Assembly (NCBI GenBank): GCA_947388675.1
Contig: CANDRW010000016.1
Span: 1 to 41,315 of the forward strand
Reading direction: 5' to 3'
Length of the DNA: 41,315 bases
Source: an uncultured Clostridium sp.
GTDB lineage: Bacteria; Bacillota; Clostridia; TANB77; CAG-508
The notes under the pieces are model-generated. The model saw only the letters and a list, made by a program, of their open reading frames with translations. It searched no databases and was not told the origin of the DNA. Position 1 is the first letter of the stretch, and each line of letters starts with the position of its first letter. The position numbers and the translations under genes are program-made. Shown here piece after piece: positions 1,378 to 19,877 of this stretch.

Positions 1378-1405
1378 AAAGGAGAACCTTTTTCAAGGTT
1401 CCCTT
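1378..1405 (-). terminator. Terminator after the dockerin-protein gene
   Basis: On the minus strand AAGGGAACCTT and AAGGTTCTCCTT pair with one bulge around a GAAA loop, followed by TTGTTTTG. It lies 27 bp past the stop of the 1072-residue secreted protein and closes the surface-protein operon. Confidence 0.7.
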
Positions 1406-1431: not shown

Positions 1432-4400
1432 TTATTTTAATCCACCAATAGTAGTAGTTGCAGTTGCTTCTGCAAACTCAATAGTTACTAATGTTGCACC
1501 TTTCGCTATTTCTGTTTTTATTGTAGCATTTTTTCCATTAAGATTAAATGCTTTCATATATTGATTAATCAATTCTTTTTCAGCATTTGTTGCTGTTGTG
1601 AAAGCTGTTTCAAAATCTTTTGCAGTATATTCTTTAATTTCTGTTCCTGCTAGAATAACAACTGGCGCTGCCATTTTGGTATTTACTGTTACTGTTGCTT
1701 TTGTCTTATCATCTTTGTTACTAACATTAACTGTTTTCGTTCCTGTTAAAGCTGGGTCAGAAATGTCAACTTCACCAGAGTTAACTTCAACATTTAAAGC
1801 ACCACTTACATTAACATTTTGTTTTGCAACAGTTACTTTTCCGCCTGTTGTTTTGATAGTAATGTCACCTAATTGTTTATCTGTTAAATCAGACTTTCCA
1901 ACAAAGGTAATCTTAGCTTCTGTTTCAGTAACATTTTGAGCAATTACATTTTCAAATGTTAAGTCATTTGTTTCTTGCTTCACTGTTACTTCTAATTCCT
2001 TTACACCTGTATTTACTTGTGATTTAATTTCAGTTTCCTTTGCAGTAGTTACTTTAACGCCATTAATTGTAACTGTTTTACCTGCTAATACAGTGTATGT
2101 GTTAGCACCACTTACCACAACCCCACCATCTAGTGTAACTTTATCAGCTTTAGCTGCAGTTAAATCATATTTTGCACCATTTCCTGCCAAACGTAATTCC
2201 CTAGCTTCTGAACCTTCTGCTATTGAAATTTCATATCCAAATACTTTTCCATTAACGATAACTGTTTTACCTTTAACAGTATCTTCAAATTCAATAGCTG
2301 TTGTAGTAGATGCATTGGTTAGTGTTAATTCTACTGTATTATCATCAATTGTAATAACATCTCCTGCTCTTAATTTTGCAATTACTGCTACACTATCTAC
2401 AAATTTTTCTGAATAAGTTGCATCTAAGGTAATTGCTTCTGCTCCATCTACTTTTAAAGTAGTTCCATCTAAGTACACTGTACCTGCTTTAGCATCTTTT
2501 ACATCTTTTACAACTGTTTTTCCTTTAATAGCAGGTGCTTGCTTTAATGTTTTGCTTCCTGCTTCAATGTATGTTGATTCTCCTTTTACCCCTTTAGCAT
2601 CTGCAACTATTTTATAAGCATATTGTGTATCTGCTTTTAATCCACTAATGATTAATTTTCCATCTTCATATTTTGTTGTAATCCCCTTTTGCTCCACATA
2701 TTTTGCAGCTTCTGGATTTGTAGTTTGAACTGTATATACTTTTGCTTCAAAATTAGTTACTTTTTCACCTTTTATAGTAATATCTCCTAAGTTTAAAGTA
2801 ATAGAATTTACATCAATTTTTTCTCCACTTACTGATGGTTTTATTCTGTAAAAGCCTTCTAATTCAGCTTCTTTTGAATTTAGTATATCACTTCCTGCTG
2901 ATTTCTTAATTACTGTAACCACTGCTTTATATGTTTTGTTGTCATCAAGATTCAATGTTACATTTGTAGCTGTAATCTTGCTTCCATCTGTTGCATCAGC
3001 TTTTGCTGTTTGTTTATAATCTTTTGCAGTCTCATCATATTCATATACTTCTACAGTATATTCTGCTACATCTTCTTTTTGGTTAGAATCTTTCCAAGAT
3101 AAAATATTTGCACCTAATTGGTTAACTTCAAAAGTAATATCTGTAACTGCTGCTAGTTCTTTTACTTCTACTTCTTTTGACATAACTGAAGTAGAATTCT
3201 TTACATTAGAACCTGTTGCAACAATTTCAATAGTATACTTTCCAGCACCATTTAAATTATCTACTATATCATATTCAGCAGTATTAACTGTTTTTTCATC
3301 TATAATTTTTCCATCTTTGTAAACAGTTACAATATATCCATTGGCGTCTTTTGCAGCTTCCCAGGTGAATTTTGTCTTACTTTTTGCTAATTCTGGAAGT
3401 ACAATCTTAGTAGCATCTACTGCTATTTGTCTATTGATAATAGCATCTGATAAAATATCAGTTTCACCTATTACAATATCTCCACCTTCGTTTTTGCTAA
3501 TACTTCCATAAGAGTTTTCTAACACATAATATACTTTATAAGTTGCATTTTTGGCTAGTTCATTAGAAACTATCTCATCAGTTAGTTTGCTATTAGCAAC
3601 TGAAGCTGATTTTGTTGTTCCTTTTGAAAATGTTGCTTTTTTAGCATCAAAAGTTGGCGCTACAGCATCAGTAGTATTTTGTACTACATAATATACTTTT
3701 GTAATATTACTTTCTCCCTTATTGGTTAGTGACATTTTTGCACTATTCCAAGCAGTACGTTCTGTACTTACTTTTGCAGCTGCTGGTGATACTGTATTTA
3801 ATTCTACTATTGCTTTAGCTACAACAGTTTCTTTATCCTTTTTGTCTTTTTCAACTAATTGAATAGTATACTTTCCATCTTCTTTGCCAGTTAAATTAAT
3901 GGTTGTAGATGTTTTTACCATATTAGCTGGAATTGTAACATTGCTATCTGCTAAAGCTTTATTTCCTTTTGCATCTAATACTCTCATAATTAAAGTTCCA
4001 TCTGCATTTAATGCTTTTGCAATCTTAATATCTACTGGTATAGAAGCTTGATTTTGATTATTCGCATATTTGTTTTTTAATTCTAATGTATAGTTAGAAG
4101 CATTTACTTCTGGTGTTAATGTAATATTCATAGAACCTTTACCTACTGCAAACTTTAATGCTAAGTTAGCATCTGCTGAAGTAACTTTTCCATCATTTAC
4201 AATGTCAGCTGCTTCTAAATTCACATTATCTACTAACTTAGATTTATCATTTGCTACTGCTAATTTTAGCATTAAGTTAGCATCTCTTGAATCTACTTTT
4301 CCATCTGCTGTTGTTTTTCCATCTTTAGAAGTAAGGTCTCCATATACTATTACTTCATAAGTTTCTTGGTCTGCGATGAAAGTATCCCCTGTTTTAACAA

Positions 4401-4650
4401 CAGTACTTCCACTATATCCTTTTACACCATTAAAGCTAGCAATATTATATTCTTTTGCAATATCAGCTATGGTTAGTCTATCATTTCTATCTTTTAATAC
4501 ATATGGTGCAACTTTATCACTATCTATTCCTTTTACTAGGTCTCTATAAGCCCCTAAAGAGGTAGCAGCATTTACTGTTCCTGCTAAGCTTGTTAATGCC
4601 ATAATTCCTGTTGTTGCTAATGTTGATATATATTTAATTTTCTTATTCAC
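1432..4650 (-). CDS. Large secreted protein with N-terminal dockerin-like domain and FN3/beta-rich repeats
   Basis: The 1072-residue protein has a signal peptide (residues 1-28, likely cut after VNA). A dockerin-like double Ca-binding repeat follows at about 104-170. Its second loop, DIVNDGKVTSAD, fits the DxxxDGxxxxxD pattern. Its first loop carries an insertion of about 7 residues before DGKVDSRD, so it is not textbook. Residues about 285-725 resemble consecutive fibronectin-III/Ig-like modules (VYYVV, YKVYYVLEN, ANILSWKD, YAYKIVADAKG). The last 350 residues are Val/Thr/Asp-rich beta strands. There is no LPXTG, SLH or membrane anchor, so retention at the surface probably depends on a cohesin, and a cohesin-like protein is encoded immediately upstream. 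Translation starts at GTG, 8 nt after GGAGG. No enzymatic domain is recognisable. The ligand is unknown. Confidence 0.75.
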   Translation of the reverse strand: MNKKIKYISTLATTGIMALTSLAGTVNAATSLGAYRDLVKGIDSDKVAPYVLKDRNDRLTIADIAKEYNIASFNGVKGYSGSTVVKTGDTFIADQETYEVIVYGDLTSKDGKTTADGKVDSRDANLMLKLAVANDKSKLVDNVNLEAADIVNDGKVTSADANLALKFAVGKGSMNITLTPEVNASNYTLELKNKYANNQNQASIPVDIKIAKALNADGTLIMRVLDAKGNKALADSNVTIPANMVKTSTTINLTGKEDGKYTIQLVEKDKKDKETVVAKAIVELNTVSPAAAKVSTERTAWNSAKMSLTNKGESNITKVYYVVQNTTDAVAPTFDAKKATFSKGTTKSASVANSKLTDEIVSNELAKNATYKVYYVLENSYGSISKNEGGDIVIGETDILSDAIINRQIAVDATKIVLPELAKSKTKFTWEAAKDANGYIVTVYKDGKIIDEKTVNTAEYDIVDNLNGAGKYTIEIVATGSNVKNSTSVMSKEVEVKELAAVTDITFEVNQLGANILSWKDSNQKEDVAEYTVEVYEYDETAKDYKQTAKADATDGSKITATNVTLNLDDNKTYKAVVTVIKKSAGSDILNSKEAELEGFYRIKPSVSGEKIDVNSITLNLGDITIKGEKVTNFEAKVYTVQTTNPEAAKYVEQKGITTKYEDGKLIISGLKADTQYAYKIVADAKGVKGESTYIEAGSKTLKQAPAIKGKTVVKDVKDAKAGTVYLDGTTLKVDGAEAITLDATYSEKFVDSVAVIAKLRAGDVITIDDNTVELTLTNASTTTAIEFEDTVKGKTVIVNGKVFGYEISIAEGSEARELRLAGNGAKYDLTAAKADKVTLDGGVVVSGANTYTVLAGKTVTINGVKVTTAKETEIKSQVNTGVKELEVTVKQETNDLTFENVIAQNVTETEAKITFVGKSDLTDKQLGDITIKTTGGKVTVAKQNVNVSGALNVEVNSGEVDISDPALTGTKTVNVSNKDDKTKATVTVNTKMAAPVVILAGTEIKEYTAKDFETAFTTATNAEKELINQYMKAFNLNGKNATIKTEIAKGATLVTIEFAEATATTTIGGLK

Positions 4651-4685
4651 TTTTCATTCCTCCACTACTATTTTTAATTCTCGTT

Positions 4686-4774
4686 GGGGACATATTTTTC
4701 CCTAGGTTATTCCTTTAGGGATAAGATATGTCCCCGTTGAATTTATTCTTCTTTTAGGGATAAGATGTGTCCCC
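4686..4774. repeat. 50-bp imperfect palindrome plus a repeated half, in the cohesin-dockerin gap
   Basis: Positions 4686-4735 form an inverted repeat. Outer arms are GGGGACATAT and ATATGTCCCC, inner arms CCCTA and TAGGG, and a 4-5 nt internal loop separates them. The right arm is repeated at 4755-4774 (TAGGGATAAGATGTGTCCCC, differing at one position). The transcript should fold strongly here, between the LPXTG-cohesin gene and the dockerin gene. The ends resemble the GTCCC/GGGAC ends of the 50-nt repeats elsewhere in the window, but the interior differs. Confidence 0.7.
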
Positions 4775-4783
4775 TCTAATTGC

Positions 4784-5437
4784 TTATCTAGCTCTCTTAA
4801 CTAATACGATTGCTCCTAAAGTTGCTACAGCTAAGGCTATAACTCCTATAAATACTGGTGTACCTGTTTGTGGTAATTTTGTAATTGGTTTTCCATCTGT
4901 TCCAACTTTATCTCCACTTGGTTTGCTTGGGTTTTCTGGTTTTTTGTCTGGATCTTTTGATGGGTCTTTCTCATCTTCTCCTGGCTTTTTATCATCATCT
5001 GGTGTTTTTATTTCTTCTGCTTTTATAGTTACTTGTGTATTTGCTAATGTTTCATTGGTATTTGCTTCAAAAGATGTAACTTTAACTCCTGCATCACCTG
5101 TAAAGTCTTTGTTTGCTGTAAATGTAACACTAATTGTTTTAGTTGTATTATCTCCACCTGCTACTGCAATAATTAATTTTCCTGCTTCATCAGCATTTAC
5201 TTGCGCAAACATATTTGTTCCTGCATTTGTTCCTTTGTATGTTAGTTTACTTGCATCATATTCCATAGTAATATCAGCATTTTCTATTGCTGTATTTACA
5301 TTGATACTTACTGTTACTTCTTCTCCTGCTTTTACTGTTTCTGGTGCAGTTACACTTCCTGCATTAACTGTTGTTCCTAATATTGCTGCTACTAAGATAA
5401 TAGCTAAAATTGTTGTTTTAAATACTGTTTTTTTCAT
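4784..5437 (-). CDS. LPXTG-anchored single-cohesin surface protein
   Basis: The 217-residue precursor has a signal peptide (1-26, TTVNA), then one beta-sandwich domain (27-138) that looks like a cohesin. Visible marks are the opening VTAPETVKAGEEVTVSI, the YDASKLTYKG strand (compare YDPxxLxxxxxxxG in cohesins) and the GKLIIAVAGGD strand. A Pro/Asp/Lys-rich wall-spanning linker follows (145-185), then LPQTG (188-192), a hydrophobic stretch (194-213) and a KRAR tail, which is a complete sortase sorting signal. The gene lies 65 bp downstream of a sortase gene and upstream of a dockerin-like protein gene, so it plausibly displays that protein on the wall. The domain could also be a general carbohydrate-binding-like fold. 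The cohesin call rests on pattern alone. Confidence 0.8.
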   Translation of the reverse strand: MKKTVFKTTILAIILVAAILGTTVNAGSVTAPETVKAGEEVTVSINVNTAIENADITMEYDASKLTYKGTNAGTNMFAQVNADEAGKLIIAVAGGDNTTKTISVTFTANKDFTGDAGVKVTSFEANTNETLANTQVTIKAEEIKTPDDDKKPGEDEKDPSKDPDKKPENPSKPSGDKVGTDGKPITKLPQTGTPVFIGVIALAVATLGAIVLVKRAR

Positions 5438-5502
5438 TTTAAATTCCTTCTTTCCTTTTATTTTTTCTTTTTGTGAAAAATATGTATGATAATATTTCTC
5501 TT

Positions 5503-6147
5503 TTAAGTCTCGCGTGCTTTGCAGACTACTCTTTTTGCGCCGCTAGGGGTGCATGTGATAATAGTCACCTCTCGTTTGCCATCTTCATTTTGGTCTAAAC
5601 AAGATAAGTCATATGGGCTACATTCATACACTTTATACACTTCATAATTCACTTTTGTTTTTGTCTTTGTATTAATCATATATAAAGTGTCACCTTTTTT
5701 TAAGGTATCTAGCTCTTTTAACATAGTCTCTCTATGACCACAAACGCAAAAGTTTCCTGGCTCATTTACTTCAGGACCATAAAGTTTTGCAATAGATAAG
5801 TCTAAAGCTGGATTATCACATATTGCTAGTAAATTTCTTTTTACTCCAATTTTATCTATCACTAATTGTCCTACCACTTCGTAGTTCCCCATTTTACTGG
5901 GTATGTTACTCACATCAGCAGTTTGGTCTTTTGCTGGTTTTGTGGTTACATTATTAAGTTCTTGATTTTCTGTTTGTTTTATCACAGCTACGCTATTAGT
6001 TTCACTTGATAAACTAAAATTTAAGCAGTCATTCACTAAATAGACAATTGAACCAATTAAAATACCTACTAGAACTATTAATGTGATTGCTTTACCTTTT
6101 TTCATTTTTTGTCTGCTAGTTTTCTTTCCCTGTAAATTAGTTGCCAT
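5503..6147 (-). CDS. Sortase (transpeptidase), first gene of the cohesin/dockerin operon
   Basis: The 214-residue enzyme has an N-terminal membrane anchor (about 19-38), a linker and a sortase beta-barrel (about 88-214). The catalytic triad is visible: His138 in CGHRE, Cys199 in TIITCTP and Arg206 seven residues later. It should cleave LPXTG signals between Thr and Gly and join the protein to the cell wall precursor. The neighbouring LPQTG protein is the obvious substrate. The TCTP signature is shared with class C and D enzymes, but I cannot assign the class. The ATG lacks a well-spaced ribosome site: AGGGGGTG lies about 20 nt upstream, so initiation may be weak or the start may differ. Confidence 0.88.
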   Translation of the reverse strand: MATNLQGKKTSRQKMKKGKAITLIVLVGILIGSIVYLVNDCLNFSLSSETNSVAVIKQTENQELNNVTTKPAKDQTADVSNIPSKMGNYEVVGQLVIDKIGVKRNLLAICDNPALDLSIAKLYGPEVNEPGNFCVCGHRETMLKELDTLKKGDTLYMINTKTKTKVNYEVYKVYECSPYDLSCLDQNEDGKREVTIITCTPSGAKRVVCKARET

Positions 6148-6212: not shown

Positions 6213-6284
6213 TAATCTGTTTCAGATTATCTTTGATTATTTTAATCTATTTCAGGTTAAATGTCAATAACCTATTTCAGATTA
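6213..6284. promoter_or_regulatory. Three 17-bp palindromic operators between XRE regulator and sortase operon
   Basis: Three copies of TAAYCTRtttCAGRTTA occur at 6213-6229 (perfect dyad TAATCTG-TTT-CAGATTA), 6243-6259 and 6268-6284. Their starts are 30 and 25 bp apart. The middle site lies in the spacer of the sortase-operon promoter, the third abuts its -35, and the first covers the expected transcription start. This is the arrangement of a repressor operator. The adjacent XRE-family gene is the natural candidate for the binding protein (inference). Confidence 0.8.
6239..6267 (-). promoter_or_regulatory. Sigma-A type promoter of the sortase-cohesin-dockerin operon
   Basis: On the minus strand, consensus TTGACA (6262-6267) and TAAAAT (6239-6244) are 17 nt apart. 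Predicted start is near 6232, about 85 nt before the sortase ATG. The promoter is embedded in three palindromic operator sites. Confidence 0.85.
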
Positions 6285-6357
6285 TTTTAAAATAATTTTA
6301 CAAATTTCTACAAATACTAAATTTAAGGGGAATTATATTTTAAGAATGGAGGATTTC

Positions 6358-6576
6358 ATGTTTAAAAGATTACGAGAATTAAGAGAAGATAAAGATTTAA
6401 ACCAATCTAAAGTTGCTCAATATCTAAATATGTCACAAACAGGTTATTCTAAATATGAAACAGGAGAAAATGATATTCCTACCAAAGTCTTGATTGACCT
6501 TGCTAAATTTTACAATACTTCTGTTGATTATTTGCTTGAGTTAACAGATGAAATGAAGCCTTACCGAGAAAAATAA
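6358..6576 (+). CDS. XRE/Cro-type HTH transcriptional regulator
   Basis: A 72-residue single-domain helix-turn-helix protein of the XRE family. The fold spans almost the whole length: FKRLRELREDKDLNQSKVAQYLNMSQTG is helices 1-3 (the recognition helix begins at MSQTGYSKYE), and the tail TKVLIDLAKFYNTSVDYLLEL is the conserved end of the domain. The ATG at 6358 was preferred over 6346 because GGAGGA lies 4 nt upstream. There is no sensor domain, so a signal would have to act through another partner or through protein level. It is divergent from the sortase operon and next to three palindromic sites, and probably represses that operon and perhaps itself. Confidence 0.9.
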   Translation: MFKRLRELREDKDLNQSKVAQYLNMSQTGYSKYETGENDIPTKVLIDLAKFYNTSVDYLLELTDEMKPYREK

Positions 6577-9604: not shown

Positions 9605-10462
9605 TTATTTATTATCATCTAAATATTGGTCAATTTGTTCCATTATCTCATCTTGTTCTTGTTTCTTTTTACTCTTTCTTGGTTTTTCCGAACTACTTTC
9701 TAAAGTTGTCTCAGTATTTTCTTCTACATAAGTTACTTCTTCTTGGTGAATACGACTTGAGTTATCCTCTTCTTCTCCCGTCTTGCTTCTTTCTCCATAA
9801 TAGTAATATTTGCTCTTATACTTTTTAAGTGATACAGGTATTCTATTGATAATAACTCCTGCTATCTTTCCACCTACATTTTCAATATTTTTTTGCACTG
9901 TTTTTAAGTTTTCCATTTTGGTTAATTTATGAGAACTTACAATCATGGTAGCATCTACAATTCTTGAAATAATGACTGCATCTGTTACAAGCATACAAGG
10001 TGTAGAGTCAAATAGAATAACATCAAATGACCTTTTTAATTCTTCTAAGCCTTGTAACATTCTTTCTGTAGATAATAACTCTGATGGATTTGGTGGAACA
10101 TTTCCTGCAGGAATAATCCATAAATTTTCCATTTCTGTTTTAATTAAATAGTCTTTAATAGATTTTTTATCTTCTGCTAGATAATTAGAAAGTCCTGGAA
10201 ATATTTTTGTTTCAAAAACATTGTGTAATCTTCCTTTTCTCATATCTGAATCTATAATAACTACTTTCTTATCTGATTGTGCAAAAGCTATTCCTAAATT
10301 AGAAGTTACCCAAGTTTTTCCTTCTCCTGGCATAGTGCTAGTTACTAATAATGAAATACTTTCGTCTTTATGTTTCATAAATTGTAGATTTGTTCTTAAT
10401 GTTTTGAAAACCTCTGAAATAGGAGATTTCGGCTCTCTATGTGTAATTAATTCACTATTCAT
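9605..10462 (-). CDS. cpsD: CpsD/CapB-type bacterial tyrosine kinase
   Basis: A 285-residue cytoplasmic BY-kinase that autophosphorylates on a C-terminal tyrosine cluster and works with its membrane activator, CpsC. Walker A is MPGEGKTW (44-51), Walker A' is VVIIDSDMR (67-75) and Walker B is VILFDSTP (148-155). The Tyr cluster YKSKYYYYGER is at about 215-225. Unlike pneumococcal CpsD, the protein continues for about 60 further residues in a Glu/Ser/Lys-rich tail. The ATG overlaps the end of cpsC by 8 bp, which suggests translational coupling. Confidence 0.92.
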   Translation of the reverse strand: MNSELITHREPKSPISEVFKTLRTNLQFMKHKDESISLLVTSTMPGEGKTWVTSNLGIAFAQSDKKVVIIDSDMRKGRLHNVFETKIFPGLSNYLAEDKKSIKDYLIKTEMENLWIIPAGNVPPNPSELLSTERMLQGLEELKRSFDVILFDSTPCMLVTDAVIISRIVDATMIVSSHKLTKMENLKTVQKNIENVGGKIAGVIINRIPVSLKKYKSKYYYYGERSKTGEEEDNSSRIHQEEVTYVEENTETTLESSSEKPRKSKKKQEQDEIMEQIDQYLDDNK

Positions 10463-11162
10463 CTTCTTTCCCTCCTATCTTTACTGCTGGTATTTGTGCT
10501 AGTACTGATAAACCAGTTTTCTTTTCTACGTCTTCTTGTGTCTTAACTGTTGTATCAAATAAACTGAAAACAAAAATAATTCCACAAGAAAGTCCAAAAC
10601 CGCCAATTGCAAAAATTAGAATATCCTTAATATGATTTACATTATATGGTTCTGTTGCTAATTCTGCTTTATCAACAATATATACGTTATTGATATTATA
10701 GATTTCCACTACTTTTTCACTAAACACATTCGCAAGTTCTGTGGTAATTAAATAGGCTATTCTTGGTTCTTCATTGACATAAGTAATTTCTATTACCTGT
10801 GTATCTTTTACAGCTTTTACTGTAATATCTTTTTCTACTTCCTCTGTCTTCATATCAGTCATACTCAAATTTTGTAAAGCCTGCTCAATTACTGTTTTAC
10901 TTTTTATCAGTACACTATAAGTAGAAACCAATGTCTGATTTAATGTGATATCTGTTTGTGTAATTTCATTTAGCTTGTCTTCTGTTTCTTGCGAATTGTT
11001 CTGCGCTAACAATAATGTTGTGGCAGATTGATATTTAGGGGTTACCAAATATTTTGTATATGCCACTCCCATGATAGCAAAAATAATGGTTACTAAGATA
11101 ATAATAGCCTTCTTTTTCCAAAATACATTAAATAATTCTTTTAAATCAATTTCTTCTTCCAT
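10455..11162 (-). CDS. cpsC: CpsC/Wzz-type chain-length regulator and kinase activator
   Basis: The 235-residue membrane protein has two transmembrane segments (about 18-37 and 172-192) enclosing an extracellular Wzz domain, the standard layout of Gram-positive polysaccharide co-polymerases. The opening EEEIDLKELFNVFWKKKA is characteristic. The short cytoplasmic tail after the second segment (DTTVKTQEDVEKKTGLSVLAQIP) activates the cognate BY-kinase in known systems. It overlaps cpsD by 8 bp. It is clearly paralogous to the N-terminal 210 residues of the fused protein at 19878-22871 (shared TPKY/VPKY, VKDTQVIEI, TEPYN blocks). Confidence 0.9.
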   Translation of the reverse strand: MEEEIDLKELFNVFWKKKAIIILVTIIFAIMGVAYTKYLVTPKYQSATTLLLAQNNSQETEDKLNEITQTDITLNQTLVSTYSVLIKSKTVIEQALQNLSMTDMKTEEVEKDITVKAVKDTQVIEITYVNEEPRIAYLITTELANVFSEKVVEIYNINNVYIVDKAELATEPYNVNHIKDILIFAIGGFGLSCGIIFVFSLFDTTVKTQEDVEKKTGLSVLAQIPAVKIGGKEDE

Positions 11163-11187
11163 GTTTCTCTAATTCCTTTTTCCTTAC

Positions 11188-12708
11188 TTATTTTATTATT
11201 CTAGCCTTTACCTCTTTTAGCATTTCTATGTAATATCTAAATTCTTTACTTCTGCCAAATAAGATAATAAATAATATCACGGCAATACCTACAGCTATGA
11301 TACCATTACATATGAATTCCCATAAACTATTGCCTATTGTTATTGCATTACATATGACAGCAGAAAGAACTGTCGCTATTACAATATAAACAAAGTATTT
11401 TACATTTTCTCCATAATATTCTTGATATGATTTTTGAAAGATTGGCTTATAAATATACTTCGGATAACTATATATAATCAAGAATAGATAACTAATTGCG
11501 GTTCCTAGTATAACTCCTGATACCCCCATTATCTTACATAAAATAATAGAAGTAACTAAGTTGATAATTGCCATAATCACATACATAAATTGGTCTTCTT
11601 CGCAAATACCTGCTGCTTCTTTATACATGGTAATTGCTCTTCTAATACTATCTGAGTAAATATAAAAAGCAAAAATCCAAATGGTAAAGTTAGATAATAG
11701 ATATTCTTTCCCCACCCATAAAGTAATAAATGGTTGAATAGCACAAGTAAATCCTACAATAAATATTCCTGTAATGAAGGAATTTAGCATATTGATCTTT
11801 TTGTAAATATCATAACTTTTTTCCGTGTTGTTTTCTGTTAATAAGTTTCCTACACTAGCTGTTAGGCTTGAAAGAATTTGATAGATAATCGTTGTGATTG
11901 CACTTACAATCATATTATAATTAGTATAATATCCAACAACTGTAATTCCTAAAAATATAGATAATACAATGTTATCTATTCCTTTATTGATAACAAATGA
12001 AATCTTTTGTAAGAAGATTGCTTTAATTCTATTGATAACATCTTTTCTTTCTTGTTTTTCTAGTTTTTTGGCTGGCTCATTGATATATTGGTAATGTTTA
12101 TTAACATATATGTTAATGATAACATTTTCTAATAATCGATAGATTAACTTGATGGCTAAAAATACCACATAGTTTTTAAATATAGCAAGCAGAATAATTT
12201 GTGTAATATTCATGAAAACGGTGTATCCCATATGCACAATGTTGACAATATAATTCTTTTGGTCAGCATATAGCAATGAGCGCTTGTAAGTCATAACATA
12301 AGAAAGAATCGTATCCAGTAGCGATATTAAATATAAAAAGATTATACTTTCTGGAATAGCAACTTCTCCTACAATCGTTGGAACTATTGGAATAATGAGT
12401 AATCCTACAATGGTAATCACTAGTGCTACACATCTGTAACAAATTTTATAAAAATTCATCCATGATTTTATTTCTTCTTTGTTATCTTCTGCAATTGGTT
12501 TATATAGCTTAAATATAATGGTAGTACCTATTCCTAGTTCTGCTACTGATAACATTGTTAAAATATTGGTAAATAAACCATTTACCCCACTATACTCTAT
12601 TCCTAAAATTCTAACAATACATGCTTGTGTGATAAAGGTAAATATCGTGGCAAATAGATAAGAACCTAAAGAGCCTAACATGTTAAATATGGAATTTTTC
12701 TTTCTCAT
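11188..12708 (-). CDS. Wzx-like oligosaccharide flippase
   Basis: The 506-residue polytopic protein of the polysaccharide-transport (MATE-like MOP) superfamily has about 12-14 hydrophobic segments. It begins SIFNMLGSLGSYLFATIFTF and contains the IVRILGIEYSGVNGLF block usual in Wzx/EpsK-type flippases. It should translocate undecaprenyl-linked repeat units across the membrane for the polymerase encoded upstream. It lies between licD and cpsC. The ATG follows AGAGGTGAAAGTGG. The repeat-unit structure cannot be deduced. Confidence 0.9.
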   Translation of the reverse strand: MRKKNSIFNMLGSLGSYLFATIFTFITQACIVRILGIEYSGVNGLFTNILTMLSVAELGIGTTIIFKLYKPIAEDNKEEIKSWMNFYKICYRCVALVITIVGLLIIPIVPTIVGEVAIPESIIFLYLISLLDTILSYVMTYKRSLLYADQKNYIVNIVHMGYTVFMNITQIILLAIFKNYVVFLAIKLIYRLLENVIINIYVNKHYQYINEPAKKLEKQERKDVINRIKAIFLQKISFVINKGIDNIVLSIFLGITVVGYYTNYNMIVSAITTIIYQILSSLTASVGNLLTENNTEKSYDIYKKINMLNSFITGIFIVGFTCAIQPFITLWVGKEYLLSNFTIWIFAFYIYSDSIRRAITMYKEAAGICEEDQFMYVIMAIINLVTSIILCKIMGVSGVILGTAISYLFLIIYSYPKYIYKPIFQKSYQEYYGENVKYFVYIVIATVLSAVICNAITIGNSLWEFICNGIIAVGIAVILFIILFGRSKEFRYYIEMLKEVKARIIK

Positions 12709-12732
12709 TTTCCACTTTCACCTCTTTCTATA

Positions 12733-13545
12733 TCAATCTTCCCAATAGACTTCTACATCATGCCTAGCCACTCTTTTTTCTAGTGGCGGTGGTGTCATAT
12801 AATCACCAAAAGTAGTTTTTAATATCATATCATAATTTTTTGGAATTTCTACTGTTAAATCTTCAAACTGGTGATCTTCTATTCCTATTAAATTTTTAGT
12901 TTCTTGTATTTCGTGTTCTATTGAATAAACTGGCCAATTGCTAACAGCATATTTTGACTCTTTAATATTATATTGGTTATTTAGTCTTCTATTTCTCTCC
13001 AATATTCTTTCTAATCCAATGAAATTTGTATAATATCGTATTATCTGCTTTATTATTTTTTTCATGATATTCGGTTCTGATATCCTCTTTAAATTATGAT
13101 AAAAAATTAGTCTTTGGTTACTTTTTATTTTTTTGCAAAACTTTTTTCTTTCTCTTGCTTGATTTGGCAATCCTGTATAGCAAAATATATCTACATGTAC
13201 TCCATAATTCTCAATTGGTTTAAAGTTATTTTCTCTCATGATTGTTTGCGTATTGACTAGCTTGGCAAATGGGTAAAAGTAATCTTTTTGTTTTGAATGG
13301 TCTAACAATAAATATTTGCTGTCTTTATTTTGATTTAAAATATTCACTAATTTTTCATAATTATCCTTTGTTAGTGCAATATCGATATCATCATCCCATG
13401 GTATAAAACCATTATGACGAATTGCACCAATTAGTGAACCTCCTATTAGAAAATATTCAATATGATTTTCTCTACAAATCATATCAATGTATTTCAAAAT
13501 ATCTATTTGTATTTTCCTTAGCTCTTTTCCCTCTATCTTTCTCAC
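12733..13545 (-). CDS. LicD-family phosphotransferase
   Basis: A 270-residue LicD/fukutin-like nucleotidyltransferase-fold enzyme. Members transfer phosphocholine or other phospho-substituents onto glycans. The core motif is visible: FLIGGSLIGAIRHNGFIPWDDDIDI (residues 33-57), with the metal-binding DDDID. It also has the helical HVDIFCYTG block (about 108-116). Translation starts at GTG, overlapping the TGA of the preceding glycosyltransferase (GTGA junction). No choline uptake or CTP:phosphocholine gene is visible here, so the transferred group is unknown. Confidence 0.9.
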   Translation of the reverse strand: MRKIEGKELRKIQIDILKYIDMICRENHIEYFLIGGSLIGAIRHNGFIPWDDDIDIALTKDNYEKLVNILNQNKDSKYLLLDHSKQKDYFYPFAKLVNTQTIMRENNFKPIENYGVHVDIFCYTGLPNQARERKKFCKKIKSNQRLIFYHNLKRISEPNIMKKIIKQIIRYYTNFIGLERILERNRRLNNQYNIKESKYAVSNWPVYSIEHEIQETKNLIGIEDHQFEDLTVEIPKNYDMILKTTFGDYMTPPPLEKRVARHDVEVYWED

Positions 13546-14660
13546 TGTTTCAATTCCTCTCTTGTATTCTTTTTATAAAATTCTACTAACTCATTTACTG
13601 TATTGTCTATATCAAAACCATTTAATTTCTTATTATTTTTTACTTCTTCTCTATGAATCGATTTTTCTAGTGTTTCTTGTGCCCATTCTTGTATGGTATT
13701 GTTTTTTAAACTGAGTCTTTTAATTCTTTCAGAACAATTTACTTCTTCTGGCAAACTATCTGTAATGATACAATTTAGACCAGATGCCTGTGCCTCTATC
13801 AGTACAATTCCTAACCCTTCAAATAAAGACGGAAATAAAAAACTATCAAATGCACTCATATATTCATTAACGTTATTTACATAGTCTATGTATATCACAT
13901 TGTTTTCTATTTTCTTATCTTGCATATATCTTTTCACTTCATCTCTTAATGGACCATTACCAATTAACACTAATTTTGTTTTTGGATTTAATTTGGTAAT
14001 CTCCTCATAAACTTTTGCTAAAAAGATATGATTTTTTTGTTCTACAAATCTTCCTACATTTCCAATGGCAAATTCATCATCTTTGATATTGAGACTTTTT
14101 CTTATTTTCTCTCTTGATAACTCATTGTAGAAAAATTCGTCTATTTTAATTCCATTGTTGCAAACTTTAAATTCTTTGTTTTTAAAACTTTGAAACATAT
14201 CTTTTCCAGCATCACTAGAGCAAGCTAATTTTAGAAAAGAGGTATTGCTTTTTACAAATCTTTCTCCTATCCAACTTAGTAGTTTTGTCTTTTTCGAAAC
14301 TATCTTATTATCTGCTATGTGTGAATGTAAAATAATGTTAGCGTTGGTATATTTTTTAGCATAAATAATTGGTTCAAAAAGGCTAAAACTCATTAAGTGG
14401 ATATGAATAAAGTCATAATTACTTTTTTGTAAAAACTCCTTTAACTGCTTTTTGAAGGCAAAATAATTTTCTTTTCTATCTTTTATAAAGAATGTATTTT
14501 CTTTTATTTCTTCATAAAAGCATGGTTTTTGCTCTCCTAAAATTAGAAAATCCATTTGAATTTCTTCTTTATTGATTTTTCTATATATGTTAATTAAATA
14601 TTTTTCTATTCCTCCCATATTAGCTGAAAAGCCAATATGTAGCACTTTTATGCAAGACAT
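13542..14660 (-). CDS. GT4-family glycosyltransferase
   Basis: A 372-residue GT-B fold retaining glycosyltransferase. N-terminal acceptor-domain motif: KVLHIGFSANMGGIEKYL (residues 5-22). Donor-domain marks: GNVGRFVEQKNH (about 205-216), KLVLIGNGPLRDEVK (about 235) and the FLFPSLFEGLGIVLIEAQASG signature with EX7E (about 273-293). It should add one sugar to the lipid-linked repeat unit on the cytoplasmic side. Donor and acceptor are not predictable. The gene starts 1 bp after the stop of the upstream glycosyltransferase, so the two are tightly coupled. Confidence 0.9.
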   Translation of the reverse strand: MSCIKVLHIGFSANMGGIEKYLINIYRKINKEEIQMDFLILGEQKPCFYEEIKENTFFIKDRKENYFAFKKQLKEFLQKSNYDFIHIHLMSFSLFEPIIYAKKYTNANIILHSHIADNKIVSKKTKLLSWIGERFVKSNTSFLKLACSSDAGKDMFQSFKNKEFKVCNNGIKIDEFFYNELSREKIRKSLNIKDDEFAIGNVGRFVEQKNHIFLAKVYEEITKLNPKTKLVLIGNGPLRDEVKRYMQDKKIENNVIYIDYVNNVNEYMSAFDSFLFPSLFEGLGIVLIEAQASGLNCIITDSLPEEVNCSERIKRLSLKNNTIQEWAQETLEKSIHREEVKNNKKLNGFDIDNTVNELVEFYKKNTREELKQ

Positions 14661-14661
14661 A

Positions 14662-15708
14662 TTATTCTCCTATTTCTTGGTATAAGTCATACATTTTTTT
14701 TATATATCCTTGTGTATTATCTAACTTCTCTGCTTTTTCACTAGCATTCTTTGATAATCTTTCATACTCATCACTATCTGTCAAAACTTTTAATATTTGT
14801 TTTGTAAATTCCTCTTCTGTTGCACATAGTTTGCCACAGGAATCATCTACAATGTTGACAAGTCCTCCTACTTTTGAGACAATACATGGTAGTCCTAAAC
14901 TTAATGCCTCAAAAGCAACTAAACCGTATCCTTCCCATTTTGATGTTAAGACGAACATTTTTGATTTTGCCATATAGGTATATGGATTTTCTTGAAATCC
15001 TACAAACTCCACATTTCCTGTAAGTTCTAGCTTGTCCCTATAGGAAATCATTTCTTTATATAACTCTCCATTTCCTACCCATACAGCCTTTATATCTTTC
15101 CTCTCTTTTTTAACTTTGCTAACAACCTCTAAAAACATTTTTGGATTTTTCGCTTCTGTTAGTCTTCCTACACAACAAATATCATATTTTTTCTGGTAAT
15201 CACTTTCTTCTACTTTCTCTAATATTTTATTTTTACTAACTGGATTTCCAATCACTTCAATTTTATCTTTTATTGCATTAGAAAAAATGTATTCTTCTTG
15301 TATCGAATTAGATACCGTTAATATTTTCTTTGCCTTTCTTCCTGCATATAGATAAGAAATAGAATAAGGACAAAGCCTTTTTATCCAAGGTGCGTTATTG
15401 TGCAAGTGATTAATAATTGGTAATTTTTTAGCTGTTAATGCACATATTACACTAGCAGTGTAGTCATGTGCTTGTAGTATATCTGGTTTCCACTGTTCAA
15501 TAAACTTTCTGATACTTTTTTTGTTCATTTTTTCTATCACATAGTAATTAATATTCTTATCTTGCAATATTTTTACAATTGGTCCATCTTGTGTTACATA
15601 GATCATTTCAAAATCTTTGTGCTCTTTTTTGAAATTATCTATGATATTGCACACAACATTTTCTAGACCCGAATAACTATTGGAATTGATAATATGTGCT
15701 ATTTTCAT
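14662..15708 (-). CDS. GT4-family glycosyltransferase
   Basis: A 348-residue GT-B glycosyltransferase of the polysaccharide operon. The N-terminal MKIAHIINSNSYSGLENVV is the usual first strand and Gly-rich loop. The C-terminal half has CCVGRLTEAKNPKMFLEV, AVWVGNGELYKE and the VLTSKWEGYGLVAFEALSLG signature with the EX7E pair. I set the start at 15708, where AGGAGA lies 6 nt upstream. The frame is open to 15732, but that would overlap the preceding gene and bury the ribosome site. The sugar is unknown. Confidence 0.9.
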   Translation of the reverse strand: MKIAHIINSNSYSGLENVVCNIIDNFKKEHKDFEMIYVTQDGPIVKILQDKNINYYVIEKMNKKSIRKFIEQWKPDILQAHDYTASVICALTAKKLPIINHLHNNAPWIKRLCPYSISYLYAGRKAKKILTVSNSIQEEYIFSNAIKDKIEVIGNPVSKNKILEKVEESDYQKKYDICCVGRLTEAKNPKMFLEVVSKVKKERKDIKAVWVGNGELYKEMISYRDKLELTGNVEFVGFQENPYTYMAKSKMFVLTSKWEGYGLVAFEALSLGLPCIVSKVGGLVNIVDDSCGKLCATEEEFTKQILKVLTDSDEYERLSKNASEKAEKLDNTQGYIKKMYDLYQEIGE

Positions 15709-15719
15709 TCGTTTTCTCC

Positions 15720-16826
15720 TTATTCTTGGCATAGTTCAATAGCTTGCTTTTCTGCTATCTCTTCTTGTGGCTTCTCCTTGATAAGTAAAGTGCACACTTG
15801 AATAGCTAGTACAAAGTTTAGTCCTGGATTGATTAAGTGACTCTCACAGCAGCCATAAATCAGTGTCATAATAAATATTTTAGTTAGTCTCCTGTCTACT
15901 TCCAGCTTTTCTCCTGATTTCCAATACATCCAAAAATAATAGACATAGAACACCAAACCTGATGATAAAATGATATGTAAATAGACATTGTCAATGTTGT
16001 TAAAGTTTGTATTTGTTTGAATTTTACTTAAATTATTTCCTAACACATTAAAAATCAATCCATTTTCCATTGTTGCATGAGCATAATATGGTCTGTAACT
16101 TAAAGCTTCGTTTAAAGGGCTATTCATATTAGCACCAAAAACTCCTAATAAAAGAGTTAAAACTGTACCAAGTGCAAAAAAGTATTTATTAATTTTGATT
16201 TTTGAATGATATAGAACATCAATTGCTAAGAATACAAAAATACACAAAAATCCCGTTCTACATAGTGTTATTTTATATAGTACATAAGCAACAATTAATG
16301 CTAAAAACCAAAATAACTTTTTGTTTTTACTAAAATAATAGAAGCCTAATAAAATCATAAAGAAATAGCAATATGTTTCATTTGGATGCGCAAATCCTAA
16401 TGAATTTCTTTGAATTCTTATACCATCAATAATTCTACTTAAATATGCTGACTCTAAAATTCCACATTGGTATAAAACAATAGTTGTAATAAATACAATT
16501 ACTAATGAAATTAAAAAATATTTGATAATATTCCTTGTATAATTTTTATCCTCAGTGAAAAGAATTCCTAGCATCAATAAAATAAGAATGTCAACATCCC
16601 TTAATAGTACAATTTGCACTACCGCTATCAATGCTAAAATTAGAAAATAGTTGGTATTGATATTCTTGATTTTCCCTCTAGAACCTAGCCAGATTAAAAC
16701 AATAAATAGGGTAGCTAATAAAATACAATTACTTATTGTATTACTGATAAAATTTTGCATTTTTAAATACTTAAATATAACAAGTAAAAAAACAATTATA
16801 AATCTAAGATTAAATTTTATCTTCAT
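15720..16826 (-). CDS. Wzy-like O-antigen/capsule polymerase
   Basis: The 368-residue protein has 10 or so hydrophobic segments and a larger extracytoplasmic loop around ESAYLSRIIDGIRIQRNSLGFAHPNE (about 128-153). RNSLGFAHPN is typical of the Wzy/O-antigen ligase superfamily. A second conserved stretch, NNIDNVYLHIILSSGLV, lies at about 280-296. It should polymerise flipped repeat units. It overlaps the preceding glycosyltransferase stop by one base. Sequence divergence in this family is high, so the call relies on topology, motifs and position. Confidence 0.85.
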   Translation of the reverse strand: MKIKFNLRFIIVFLLVIFKYLKMQNFISNTISNCILLATLFIVLIWLGSRGKIKNINTNYFLILALIAVVQIVLLRDVDILILLMLGILFTEDKNYTRNIIKYFLISLVIVFITTIVLYQCGILESAYLSRIIDGIRIQRNSLGFAHPNETYCYFFMILLGFYYFSKNKKLFWFLALIVAYVLYKITLCRTGFLCIFVFLAIDVLYHSKIKINKYFFALGTVLTLLLGVFGANMNSPLNEALSYRPYYAHATMENGLIFNVLGNNLSKIQTNTNFNNIDNVYLHIILSSGLVFYVYYFWMYWKSGEKLEVDRRLTKIFIMTLIYGCCESHLINPGLNFVLAIQVCTLLIKEKPQEEIAEKQAIELCQE

Positions 16827-17968
16827 TATTTACCCTTTCTATCATTTGTGTCAAATTTTATATAAATTCCTTCTAATTTTTTTGCTTCTTTTTGTATATC
16901 AAAACCTTTTTGTGTCATTTCACTTAAAGTGTTCTTTCTTTCAAATTGCTTCGTCGCATTACATATAGTATCTGCCCATTTTTTTTCGCCTTCATTTAAC
17001 GACAAAAATGTAGTAGTTTCCAATACTTTCGTTTCTTTTGTCATATCATCTGAGAATATGCATAGAAGCCCTGCTGCTTGCGCTTCTACTCCTACAACTG
17101 GTAACCCTTCATATAAGCTAGGTAATACAAAGACATCCATCGCCTGATACAATCTATTAGCGTCATTTCTTTGTCCTAAAAATTTAACTACCTTATCTAG
17201 CTTCATTTCTTTTACTTTTTGTTCTATCTTTTCTTTTAAAGGGCCTTGTCCCGCAAGCAATAAAATGCTATTTTCATTTTCTCTATATATTTCATTAAAT
17301 ATCTCAATTAAAAACTTATGATTTTTAACTGTTACAAATCTTCCAATATGCCCCATAACAAAAGTTTTTTCACCAATATTCAATTCTTTTCTTACTTCTT
17401 CTCTTATTTTCTCATTATATTCAAATTTTTGCAAGTCTATCGCATTATTTAATAGATAAATTTTTCCCTCATTATATAGTTTATCGCCAAATAGCCATCT
17501 TCCTGCTAATTCTGAGCAACACATATAATCTGTTGCAAATAGCTTTGAAAATGGCTTCAATACTTGCTTCATTAAATTTTTCTTTTTTTCTTTTTTATTG
17601 GTGGTACTATGAGAATGTGCAATACGTACTGGCACTTTAGCACATTTTGCTGCAAACAAACTAAACACAGATAATGTGTTTATGTGTGAATGCACAATTT
17701 TATAATTTCCTTCTTTTAAAACTCTTTTTAATTCTTTATGATATCTAAATAACTTTTGATAAGGTGGAATTAAAATTACTTTTCCACCTAATCTCTCTAT
17801 TTCTTCATAAGGTATATTAGTTGAATCTTCATCACAGATAAAATCAAATTGTATCTTACTTTTGTCAATGTGGCGGTAGTAGTTCATCACAACCGCTTCT
17901 ACTCCACCGCCAATCCATTTTCCAATAACTTGTGCAATTCTAATAGGTTCTTGTTTCATATTTTCCAT
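16826..17968 (-). CDS. GT4-family glycosyltransferase (EpsF-like)
   Basis: The 380-residue GT-B enzyme opens with PIRIAQVIGKWIGGGVEAVV, the hallmark of EpsF-type exopolysaccharide glycosyltransferases, followed by MNYYRHIDKSKIQFDFI. The C-terminal domain has GHIGRFVTVKNHKFLIEIF, LLLAGQGPLKEKI and FVLPSLYEGLPVVGVEAQAAG with EX7E. Start: ATG at 17968 with GGAGG upstream. It follows the priming transferase gene by 34 bp and may add the second sugar of the repeat unit (inferred from gene order). Confidence 0.9.
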   Translation of the reverse strand: MENMKQEPIRIAQVIGKWIGGGVEAVVMNYYRHIDKSKIQFDFICDEDSTNIPYEEIERLGGKVILIPPYQKLFRYHKELKRVLKEGNYKIVHSHINTLSVFSLFAAKCAKVPVRIAHSHSTTNKKEKKKNLMKQVLKPFSKLFATDYMCCSELAGRWLFGDKLYNEGKIYLLNNAIDLQKFEYNEKIREEVRKELNIGEKTFVMGHIGRFVTVKNHKFLIEIFNEIYRENENSILLLAGQGPLKEKIEQKVKEMKLDKVVKFLGQRNDANRLYQAMDVFVLPSLYEGLPVVGVEAQAAGLLCIFSDDMTKETKVLETTTFLSLNEGEKKWADTICNATKQFERKNTLSEMTQKGFDIQKEAKKLEGIYIKFDTNDRKGK

Positions 17969-18002
17969 AACCTACTTCCTCCTAAATGTGTTCTTATGTC
18001 TT

Positions 18003-18719
18003 TTATCTTGCGCCTTCCTTTGCAAACACTTTGAATGCTGTCTTTATTAAAATTTTAGTATCACATTTCATTCCTTTTGATTGATTATATGTATAATCTA
18101 AACTTAGTCTTTCATCAAAACTTGTTTCACTTCTTCCTGAAACTTGCCATAGTCCTGTAATTCCTGGTTTTGACTGAATAATACAGTTATAGTAACTTTT
18201 CATGTCGTCTTTTTCTCTTGGTAAATATGGTCTTGGTCCTACTAAACTCATATTGCCAATTAAAACATTTACTAATTGTGGTAATTCATCAATACTTGTT
18301 TTTCTAATAAATTTCCCTATTTTTGTTACTCTTGGATCATCTTTTAACTTTTTATATGTTTGATATTCTTTTCTTGCTTCTTCATTTTCTGCTAAGTATT
18401 TCTCTAAAATTGCATCCGCTCCGACTACCATGGAACGATATTTGTACATTTTAAAAATCTTACCATCTTGTCCAATTCTTTCTTGTACTAAAAAAGCTGG
18501 TCCTTTAGAATCTAGTTTTACAGCGGCTGCTGCAAATAGCATAATTGGTGATAGTGCTACTAATGCAATTGCTGAAATTACAACATCTGATGTTCTTTTA
18601 AATCCTAGATATACGTCCTCCTTTTTTAATAAACTTCTCTCTTTTAACTCTACTAATTCTGTACGCATTGGTATTTGCATTTGCATCCCATCTACATTTT
18701 CTGCTACATTGTTTTGCAT
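18003..18719 (-). CDS. Priming sugar transferase (undecaprenyl-phosphate sugar-1-phosphate transferase)
   Basis: The 238-residue member of the bacterial sugar transferase family moves a sugar-1-phosphate from a nucleotide sugar to undecaprenyl phosphate, the committed step of repeat-unit assembly. It has only the catalytic module: a membrane re-entrant hairpin (about 49-72), then LVQERIGQDGKIFKMYKYRSM, the KIGKFIRKTSIDELPQL block, LVGPRPYLPRE and GITGLWQVSGR. The four-helix membrane bundle of WbaP is absent, as in PglC/EpsL-type short forms, and the first 40 residues are non-conserved. GGAGG precedes the ATG. Confidence 0.93.
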   Translation of the reverse strand: MQNNVAENVDGMQMQIPMRTELVELKERSLLKKEDVYLGFKRTSDVVISAIALVALSPIMLFAAAAVKLDSKGPAFLVQERIGQDGKIFKMYKYRSMVVGADAILEKYLAENEEARKEYQTYKKLKDDPRVTKIGKFIRKTSIDELPQLVNVLIGNMSLVGPRPYLPREKDDMKSYYNCIIQSKPGITGLWQVSGRSETSFDERLSLDYTYNQSKGMKCDTKILIKTAFKVFAKEGAR

Positions 18720-18809
18720 AATATGTTTTCCTCCATCTTTTCCTTCTTAAATTTGCCTTCTTTCGTTTCTTGTTTTCTTTGGTATCTTATATTATGCTTG
18801 TCCTTGTGT

Positions 18810-19874
18810 TTATTTTGTATAACCTGTTTTTTGAATAATTTCATTGCTAATTTGTTTTACTGCATTAGATGGTTCATAATCTTCTTGTCCATAAATTTCT
18901 TTATGCAATCTTATTACATTGCTTTCTAATGTAATTGGTGGTCCATACCAAATTCCATTAATTGTTGCGCCTTTAGTTTCATATGGCCAACCAATATTAT
19001 ATTTCATTTTGTAAGTTGCAAGCTCTGGTATCATTGCTAAAATTTCTTGTGCTTCAATATTGGTATAAGTTTTAGGTAATAGAATATCTACTATTTTATT
19101 TAATTCTGTTACACTTAAGTTTTTTGCTTTTTGAAGCATTTTCTCAATAACAGTTCTCATTCTTTCTGTCCTTTTATAATCTCCGCCTTCCGTATAACGA
19201 ATTCTTGAATAAGCTAATGCTTGTACACCATCTACTTGTCTTTTTCCTGCTGTTGTAATTTCTTCAGAAGAATGTTCTGTTACACGATTAATCTCGCTAA
19301 TATACCCATTAATGTATTTTACTTCATCTTCTGTGATATCTAGCTCAATTCCGCCCAAAGCATCTACGGCTTCTACTACTGCTTCAAAGTTAACTGTGAC
19401 AAACTCTTTAATATCTAAATCTAAGTTTGTATTTAAAGTACTAATCGCTAGTTCTGGACCGCCATAAGAATAGGCATGTGTTACTTTGTCTAAATACATG
19501 TCTGTCATTTTTAAGTAAGTATCTCTATAAACAGATACTAAACTGACTTCTTTGGTCTTTTCATTTAAAATGGCAAGAATAATACAATCACTTCTATTTC
19601 CTTTGTCATAAGTATCTTCTCTTGCGTCAATTCCGAATAAAGCAATAGTTCTATAGGTTTCTAGTGCTTCTGCTTTCACTAATACTTCTGGATTTACTTG
19701 TATTTTATTTTGGTCAAGTTCCACATAATTGATTTTTGCTAATTTATCATTAATGTAGAAACTTCCTAATGTGACAATTGTTATGATAAGTAACAGTAGA
19801 ACACTAAAAATGCTAATTATAATTTTCCCCTTTTTTCCTGTTTTCTTTTTACCTGTTTGCATTTCTTCTTCCAT
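18810..19874 (-). CDS. LytR-CpsA-Psr (LCP) family glycopolymer ligase
   Basis: A 354-residue membrane-anchored phosphotransferase that attaches finished capsule or teichoic polymers from the lipid carrier to peptidoglycan. After a Lys-rich cytoplasmic start, one membrane segment lies at about 17-37. The LCP domain shows ALFGIDAREDTYDKGNRSDC (with the Asp/Arg that bind pyrophosphate lipid), VSVYRDTYLKM and the QALAYSRIRYTEGGDYKRTERM block with conserved arginines. The gene lies 3 bp after the fused kinase, with GGAGGG before the ATG, so capsule export and anchoring are co-expressed. Confidence 0.93.
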   Translation of the reverse strand: MEEEMQTGKKKTGKKGKIIISIFSVLLLLIITIVTLGSFYINDKLAKINYVELDQNKIQVNPEVLVKAEALETYRTIALFGIDAREDTYDKGNRSDCIILAILNEKTKEVSLVSVYRDTYLKMTDMYLDKVTHAYSYGGPELAISTLNTNLDLDIKEFVTVNFEAVVEAVDALGGIELDITEDEVKYINGYISEINRVTEHSSEEITTAGKRQVDGVQALAYSRIRYTEGGDYKRTERMRTVIEKMLQKAKNLSVTELNKIVDILLPKTYTNIEAQEILAMIPELATYKMKYNIGWPYETKGATINGIWYGPPITLESNVIRLHKEIYGQEDYEPSNAVKQISNEIIQKTGYTK

Positions 19875-19877
19875 GTT

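Follow-up and report, generated by a model that had tools for sequence, protein, structure and literature searches.

The window analysed here is a stretch of 41,315 nucleotides from an uncultured Clostridium sp., a gut bacterium (assembly GCA_947388675.1, contig CANDRW010000016.1, positions 1 to 41,315 of the forward strand). Our subject is a set of three adjacent genes on its minus strand, between 1432 and 6147, that encode a sortase, a small secreted cohesin protein and a large secreted protein with a dockerin, referred to below as the cargo. The three open reading frames (ORFs) had been proposed by a sequence-only reading of the window; all are present where it placed them, and the ORFs together with Pfam matches show that sortase, receptor and cargo are encoded side by side. 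We consider it rather likely that these genes form a dedicated kit for displaying a protein on the cell surface, kept as a single cassette in the window and elaborated into a shufflon in a sister clade.

Sortase, cohesin receptor and dockerin cargo

The sortase gene (5503..6147, minus strand) encodes 214 amino acids, with an N-terminal membrane segment and the catalytic cysteine in ..IITCTPSGAKRVVC..; the TC..R catalytic end reads IITCTPSGAKR in the translation. The protein scores 64.0 bits against Pfam Sortase (cut-off 26.6) and lies above the cut-off of TIGR01076, while the NCBIfam models of classes C, D and E all stay below theirs and no class-specific NCBIfam cut-off is passed. Sortase genes with a frame-shifted or split appearance were seen in five relatives (L051 8255-8977, L052 6746-7480, L054 8184-8919, L063 8157-8772 and L147 4617-5265; L numbers denote loci, G numbers genomes and C numbers contigs). 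In L051, L052 and L054 (genomes G028, G001 and G022) the shift is in the identical position, following ..LKK, and the frame beyond it, which includes the catalytic cysteine, is preserved, so a programmed +1 frameshift is possible in these three.

The cohesin-protein gene (4784..5437, minus strand) encodes 217 amino acids and ends in a sorting signal, KLPQTG followed by a 25-residue hydrophobic and basic tail that runs to the C-terminus (LPQTG at 4862..4876); this region scores 14.7 bits against TIGR01167 (cut-off 15.9). Its cohesin domain occupies residues 29-140 (5018..5353). As the scores of the window proteins alone were borderline for both cohesin and dockerin (22.7 and 23.2 bits), relatives were added to the profiles. 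A profile of 15 cohesin proteins, the window's included, finds solved cohesins in the PDB, with a best E of 1.4e-5 to C. perfringens NagJ, followed by cellulosomal cohesins. The predicted model has nine strands, as a nine-strand jelly-roll fold should, and a Foldseek search with it returns cohesin or cohesin-dockerin entries at all of ranks 1-10 (best E 2.9e-8; target-normalised TM 0.41-0.65), before an adhesin domain at rank 11 and a few unrelated beta proteins after it. The fold search confirms the earlier assignment of this domain to the cohesin family, to which the family profile also points.

The cargo gene (1432..4650, minus strand) opens with GTG and encodes 1072 amino acids: by eye a signal-peptide-like N-terminus, then a module of about 75 residues, a dockerin region with two EF-hand-like repeats (residues 104-170, 4141..4341) and an exposed body resembling immunoglobulin (Ig) and fn3 domains (residues 175-1072, 1435..4128), whose counterpart in the sister species appears exchangeable. 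No wall anchor was seen in the window cargo. The dockerin had also been named by the sequence-only reading and belongs to that family: Pfam Dockerin_1 matches residues 115-162 at 23.2 bits (cut-off 22.9), and a profile of ten cargo proteins finds solved dockerins in the PDB with a best E of 5e-13. Dockerin_1 and fn3 are each matched by nine of these ten proteins (E<=0.01); in the window cargo itself fn3 scores 20.5 bits, below its cut-off of 25. The cargo aligns over its whole length, at 29-38% identity to all but its two nearest relatives, which argues for a true family sharing more than one domain. The body is modelled, fairly confidently in the full cargo model, as a string of fn3/Ig-like sandwiches; it matches no catalytic Pfam family, and the fold search yields only generic fn3/Ig arrays.

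Loop 1 of the window dockerin carries a 7-residue insertion common to L049 and L050 and absent from the other seven aligned relatives. The calcium-ligand pattern is recognisable by eye in loop 2 of the window, and several relatives have a degenerate second loop. The two dockerin repeats resemble each other at particular helix positions. Among 37 of 38 dockerins with ungapped, usable repeats, some of them closely related to each other, repeats 1 and 2 are identical at residue 14 in 36 cases, where 15.0 would be expected from other proteins. Residues 17 (18 observed, 3.0 expected), 18 (24 and 6.8), 20 (20 and 3.2), 21 (21 and 7.9) and 22 (20 and 10.0) behave likewise, while residues 15, 16 and 19 are unmatched between repeats (6, 6 and 7 against 4.0, 12.0 and 6.0); none of 20,000 permutations attains the observed sum. 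The helix residues shared by the repeats change between species. Homogenisation of the repeats would hardly spare only one helix face, and we therefore read the symmetry as selection for two equivalent binding faces and for lineage-specific recognition. Such a dual-binding mode is known for cellulosomal dockerins.

The three genes fit a single transcript. A promoter-like TTGACA-17-TAAAAT (6239..6267, minus strand; an 11/12 match to consensus only) lies about 90 bp before the sortase gene, a terminator-like hairpin (1382..1403, minus strand; likewise a consensus match only) follows the cargo gene, and a consensus scan finds no minus-strand terminator-like site between the three genes. Promoter-like matches are not enriched in the operon region over shuffled sequence (19 vs 23.8). 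Adjoining the operon is a divergent gene for an HTH_3 regulator-like protein (6346..6576, plus strand; Pfam of the window ORF), and the ORF lists of L049, L050, L051, L053 and L054 hold a short divergent ORF of 76-89 codons at the same position, the Pfam match being that of the window ORF only. Pfam identifies the operon's neighbours in the window as dUTPase and CarD. Upstream of the operon, past an ECF transporter, lies a polysaccharide cluster (10455-22871; Wzz, LicD, glycosyltransferases, LytR_cpsA_psr). Elsewhere in the window an exact 20-bp inverted repeat, GTTTAACTGACATCTGTCCC, occurs at 25696-25715 and 32179-32198, 6.5 kb apart.

Conservation of the trio and probable display by docking

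The gene order, whose absence from relatives would have counted against the earlier reading, is conserved. We found 39 cohesin-cargo pairs in 36 fetched loci, one pair being a duplicate view of the same gene, and a sortase gene lies directly upstream in 32 of the 39, the five frame-shifted or split sortases included. These 32 trios, found in 32 of the 36 loci, come from 31 genomes, the window's among them, and span seven genera and two families by taxonomic labels; G020, nearly identical to the window genome, is additional to the 31. The loci were picked for matching, so the figures describe conservation of context rather than prevalence. The pairs without an adjacent sortase are those of G030 and the extra pairs of G185. 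In G040 (L060) a sortase and a cohesin gene adjoin a cargo with the dockerin-like part at its C-terminus. The cohesin protein, searched against 96 genomes, had matches in 21, several of the weak ones being other cohesin loci without the trio (L064-L068). The cargo profile matched something in 212 of 287 genomes of the order, mostly dockerins alone, and with at most two candidates scored per genome a near-full-length match appeared in at least 25.

These observations suggest how the kit could work. The LPQTG signal would let the sortase fix the small cohesin protein to the wall. The secreted cargo would be held there by the binding of its N-terminal dockerin to the anchored cohesin, leaving the long fn3/Ig-like body to project from the cell, perhaps in an adhesive or coat role under host or phage pressure. 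That this sortase anchors this cohesin, and that this cohesin binds this dockerin, we infer from domains and gene order. Since docking would use the constant N-terminal part only, the exposed body could be replaced freely. Display of the cargo by cohesin-dockerin docking is, in our judgment, likely.

Several features weigh against it. The window's Pfam Cohesin match (residues 29-140) stays below the cut-off, at 22.7 bits against 24.1, and only six of the 15 family members match Cohesin at E<=0.01, the best E being 2.2e-9. In the cargo model the dockerin is predicted with low confidence (pLDDT 42-51 in blocks of ten), the sortase genes of five relatives appear frame-shifted or split, as described above, and the sorting motif of several relatives deviates from LPXTG. 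The cohesin and dockerin do co-vary in a set of 27 loci (partial Mantel r 0.51 with the sortase controlled for), but the cohesin co-varies as strongly with the N-terminal module (r 0.57). This co-variation does not single out the docking pair, and we dropped it as evidence of pairing. Across the aligned cohesin proteins and those of L142 and L143, the sorting motif takes the forms LPQTG, HPQTG, NPPTG, LPQLG, LAQTG, LAPTG, LSQTG, LVQTG, IPQAG and IAQAG, with the last G invariant.

The cohesin and dockerin of the operon are not alone in their genome, in which we count 11 dockerin, 10 cohesin (eight above cut-off) and 13 sortase matches, and cross-docking is therefore possible. The locus might then be one branch of a genome-wide, cellulosome-like assembly directed at mucin or other glycans, in which this cohesin and this dockerin may find their partners elsewhere. 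Beyond the match counts, such an assembly is suggested by the genome's other large dockerin proteins, eight of which were scanned and carry M60, M26_N, transglutaminase, NPCBM, F5/8C, SH3_3 or Big_2 domains, and by proteins bearing both cohesin and dockerin on L069, L070 and L075. Yet no glycoside hydrolase family was found at E<=0.001 in those eight proteins (a scan of large dockerin proteins, to which the small cohesin-dockerin proteins on L069 and L075 do not belong), the helices of the operon dockerin (DANLMLKLAVA, DANLALKFAVG) do not, to the eye, resemble those of other dockerins in the genome, and the trio recurs as a unit over seven genera. We regard the genome-wide assembly as the less likely account, though a serious one. 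The other cohesin and dockerin loci of the window genome are L069-L078, with M60, M26_N, transglutaminase, NPCBM or F5/8C domains; genes for LPXTG-bearing cohesin proteins stand beside or near giant dockerin proteins on L069, L070 and L073, and on L071 and L072 cohesin proteins stand beside giant dockerin proteins, with no sorting motif found by script.

The sequence-only reading had called the operon a minimal, non-cellulosomal system. The second adjective holds: the operon receptor has one cohesin, the scanned dockerin proteins have no glycoside hydrolase, and a cellulosome is not indicated. The first does not, given the further dockerin and cohesin matches. Similarly, its statement that scaffoldins, glycoside hydrolases and carbohydrate-binding modules are absent applies to the 19 window proteins scanned with Pfam (part of the window only), among which no glycoside hydrolase or carbohydrate-binding family appeared; for the genome, with its further cohesin and dockerin genes, it is incomplete.

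Apparently exchangeable cargo bodies in a sister clade

A sister clade in the same genus as the window (G005, G008, G012, G018, G025, G027 and probably G016) carries the cargo gene in a different arrangement. In six genomes of the genus a 16-bp site, CCAGAMCAAGAWGTTC, lies directly after the dockerin, in frame, and encodes ..DP[ED]Q[ED]V... With up to one mismatch this 16-mer occurs in eight of 30 genomes of the genus, with 31 matches against three for the reversed pattern. Additional bodies start from this site too; they lie in either orientation, most of them in tail-to-tail pairs, and at least six silent bodies are present in one genome. The 32 sites that could be read in context, from seven genomes, all keep a single reading frame: 24 lead into an ORF of 740-998 codons closed by a stop codon, eight reach the contig end first, and none leads into an early stop. 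Seven of the 32 are dockerin contexts in six genomes, two of them on overlapping contigs of G012. The other 25 are silent, and 22 of these have an in-frame stop 6-31 codons upstream, the remaining three being cut by the contig start; the short stretch before a silent site leaves no room for a dockerin, although a start is not impossible.

The site copies themselves are unevenly conserved. In 31 copies (G016 left out) positions 3-5, 7-11 and 13-16 are invariant, positions 1, 2 and 6 vary, and position 12 is A in 27 copies and T in the four copies of G027; one arm is thus fixed and the other loose. The bodies within one genome are 24-71% identical or lack any BLAST hit to one another, and Pfam finds nothing in nine of ten sister-clade bodies or genes, the tenth having one Tissue_fac (fn3-like) match. 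The rod-shaped reading of the body is accordingly limited to bodies related to the window's. A tyrosine recombinase gene (at least 92% identity) is present in five of the 30 genomes of the genus and lies 120-186 bp from a site in all five; the four proteins scanned match Phage_integrase with E between 9e-32 and 1e-33. Toxin-antitoxin genes of the MNT/HEPN, RelB/YoeB and AbiEi/AbiEii types stand between cassettes (L225-L228, the last by resemblance only), as if they held the array.

A constant N-terminal part, alternative ends at a common site in both orientations and an adjacent tyrosine recombinase are hallmarks of a shufflon, and these three are found here. It is very likely that the sister-clade cargo gene is the expression end of one. 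The recombinase would act at the 16-bp site just after the dockerin codons and swap in one of several silent bodies; that this enzyme uses this site is suggested by their proximity.

The ends of the contigs point to ongoing exchange. Of the 29 sites counted, nine are no more than 77 bp away from a contig end, where 0.30 would be expected on the same contigs; the count excludes the sites of G016, additional ones in L063 and L248, and the lone site with one mismatch in each of G024 and G028. Pairs of contigs share exactly 77 bp at sites, twice in G012 and once in G018, which implies an assembly word of 77, so that a 16-bp repeat alone should not break contigs. In G012 one contig (C90) joins a body, X, to the dockerin end and another (C33) joins it to the recombinase-side silent flank, and the two copies of X do not differ over 77 bp that include the site. 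The first base of contig C44 in G018 is site position 7, immediately past position 6, at which the dockerin and most silent flanks differ (A or C). The body displayed in G005 is found again in a silent context, with two of 77 bases different, one of them at site position 6. Breaks at the site, together with one body found behind both the dockerin and a silent flank, make recombination look active, and we think it probable that it is active in the sampled populations; the evidence for inversion consists of alternative junctions in draft assemblies.

The extra bodies could also be ordinary duplicated genes or pseudogenes and the breaks at the 16-mer assembly noise, for all the assemblies are drafts of many contigs, the stretches between cassettes repeat as well, and identical copies of a body may exist in G012. 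Noise of this kind would not explain why none of the 32 sites leads into an early stop, why bodies so divergent within one genome have a common site and frame, why the recombinase gene lies beside a site in all five genomes that have it, or why contig ends cluster at sites; we consider this account very improbable. A further possibility is that variation arises chiefly when repeated stretches of cohesin and dockerin DNA recombine by homology, without a site-specific enzyme. G185 offers a case for it, with six cohesin-cargo pairs in three inverted pairs (L142, L160, L143), no 16-mer, and exact inverted repeats, the longest of 142 bp, located mostly in cohesin genes. In the clade with the 16-mer, the stretch common to dockerin and silent contexts barely exceeds the site, which is short for ordinary homologous exchange, and we consider this explanation improbable. 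Contig C4 of G185 has one sortase gene for its six cohesin-cargo pairs, with MNT/HEPN-like and other genes between them, and the arrangement ends near a CarD-like ORF.

Site-specific exchange in the sister clade has points against it as well. The double junctions of G012 and G005 may, alternatively, be two copies of one body rather than an inversion. Some silent contexts hold an ATG before the site (for example MFSIFNAFSVL), and weak separate expression of silent bodies is possible. G016 (97% complete) has sites at both ends of one contig and G008 (72% complete) has sites too, with a recombinase match of only 30% in each. In the window genome, 91% complete, the 16-bp site is absent with up to one mismatch and no close recombinase was found, the best match having 31% identity.

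The window genome has one cargo body match, and we take it as a single-cassette form, ancestral or reduced. Its dockerin-body junction reads CCAGAAGTA; this had been considered as a remnant of the site and was rejected, with nothing to support it. ORFs with the lengths of the dUTPase and CarD neighbours lie at the L050 operon, and ORFs that resemble them to the eye are found close to the recombinase end (G012) and to the array end (G185). G006 has a recombinase relative of 40% identity (L249 8834-9961), close to ORFs that resemble dUTPase and CarD; inspection by eye of the ORF starts listed for that locus showed neither cargo nor cohesin.

Cargo relatives in G194, G197 and G207 were considered as further users of the 16-bp site, which was not supported, their N-terminal parts differing from the dockerin; judged by eye, those parts look like GW..W-like repeats. 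Contig C60 of G194 has a different sequence common to both its ends, and among these relatives only contig C86 of G194 has a close variant of the 16-mer. L152-L157 and L124 (G194, G197, G016, G207, G213) hold relatives of the cargo body, arranged tail to tail in pairs or placed so that the contig ends where the body begins.

Relation to known systems

The best-known role of cohesin-dockerin pairs is to scaffold enzymes, in cellulosomes, and a sortase-anchored cohesin is known in ScaE of Ruminococcus flavefaciens. The anchoring scaffoldins of Ruminococcus are reported to be attached by sortase (PMC11557425). That type and, probably, the present one pair a sortase-fixed wall cohesin with a dockerin-bearing partner; the former anchors enzyme complexes, whereas here the sortase, the receptor and one non-enzymatic cargo are adjacent genes. 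The mucinolysome of Limousia (PMC12997984) is likewise a cohesin-dockerin assembly of a gut bacterium with an LPxTG-anchored cohesin protein, cSca5, but its scaffoldins, of which two have tandem cohesins, carry enzymes; its description makes no use of the words inversion, shufflon or recombinase. C. perfringens glycoside hydrolases supply some of the closest solved cohesins by profile and fold (2w1n, 2jh2, 2vo8), and those cohesins sit on enzymes, whereas here the cohesin would be a wall receptor.

For the sister clade the closest counterpart is the PilV shufflon of R64 and TP114, in which the recombinase Rci uses sites with one conserved and one non-conserved arm (PMC9045228). Common to both are a constant N-terminal part, alternative ends at sites, a tyrosine recombinase (shufflon-specific in PilV) and sites with one conserved arm. 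The PilV ends of TP114 are 69-113 residues of a plasmid pilin (same source), whereas the sister-clade bodies have 740-998 residues, are probably docked to the wall, follow a dockerin as the constant part and are interspersed with toxin-antitoxin genes. In the titles and abstract openings examined, with most subscription papers and preprints outside their coverage, there was no paper on a shufflon with a dockerin and no comparable system, and we regard the novelty of the system as provisional.

Taken as a whole, the arrangement can with some confidence be pictured as a changeable coat. A fixed, sortase-anchored cohesin and a dockerin plug would stay constant, a recombinase would switch large, partly unrelated bodies from a stock of at least six silent ones in one genome, toxin-antitoxin genes would hold the array, and the window species would be locked in the single-cassette form.

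The plug best known from enzyme complexes thus seems to serve, in many uncultured Clostridia, a non-enzymatic surface protein with a sortase of its own. The trio is a source of new candidate cohesin-dockerin pairs and the sister clade of a new recombinase-site pair. In the sister species the plug would make swapping of the whole body possible, as a wall-docked counterpart of the pilus-tip shufflons, and antigenic or phage-receptor switching in these species becomes directly testable.

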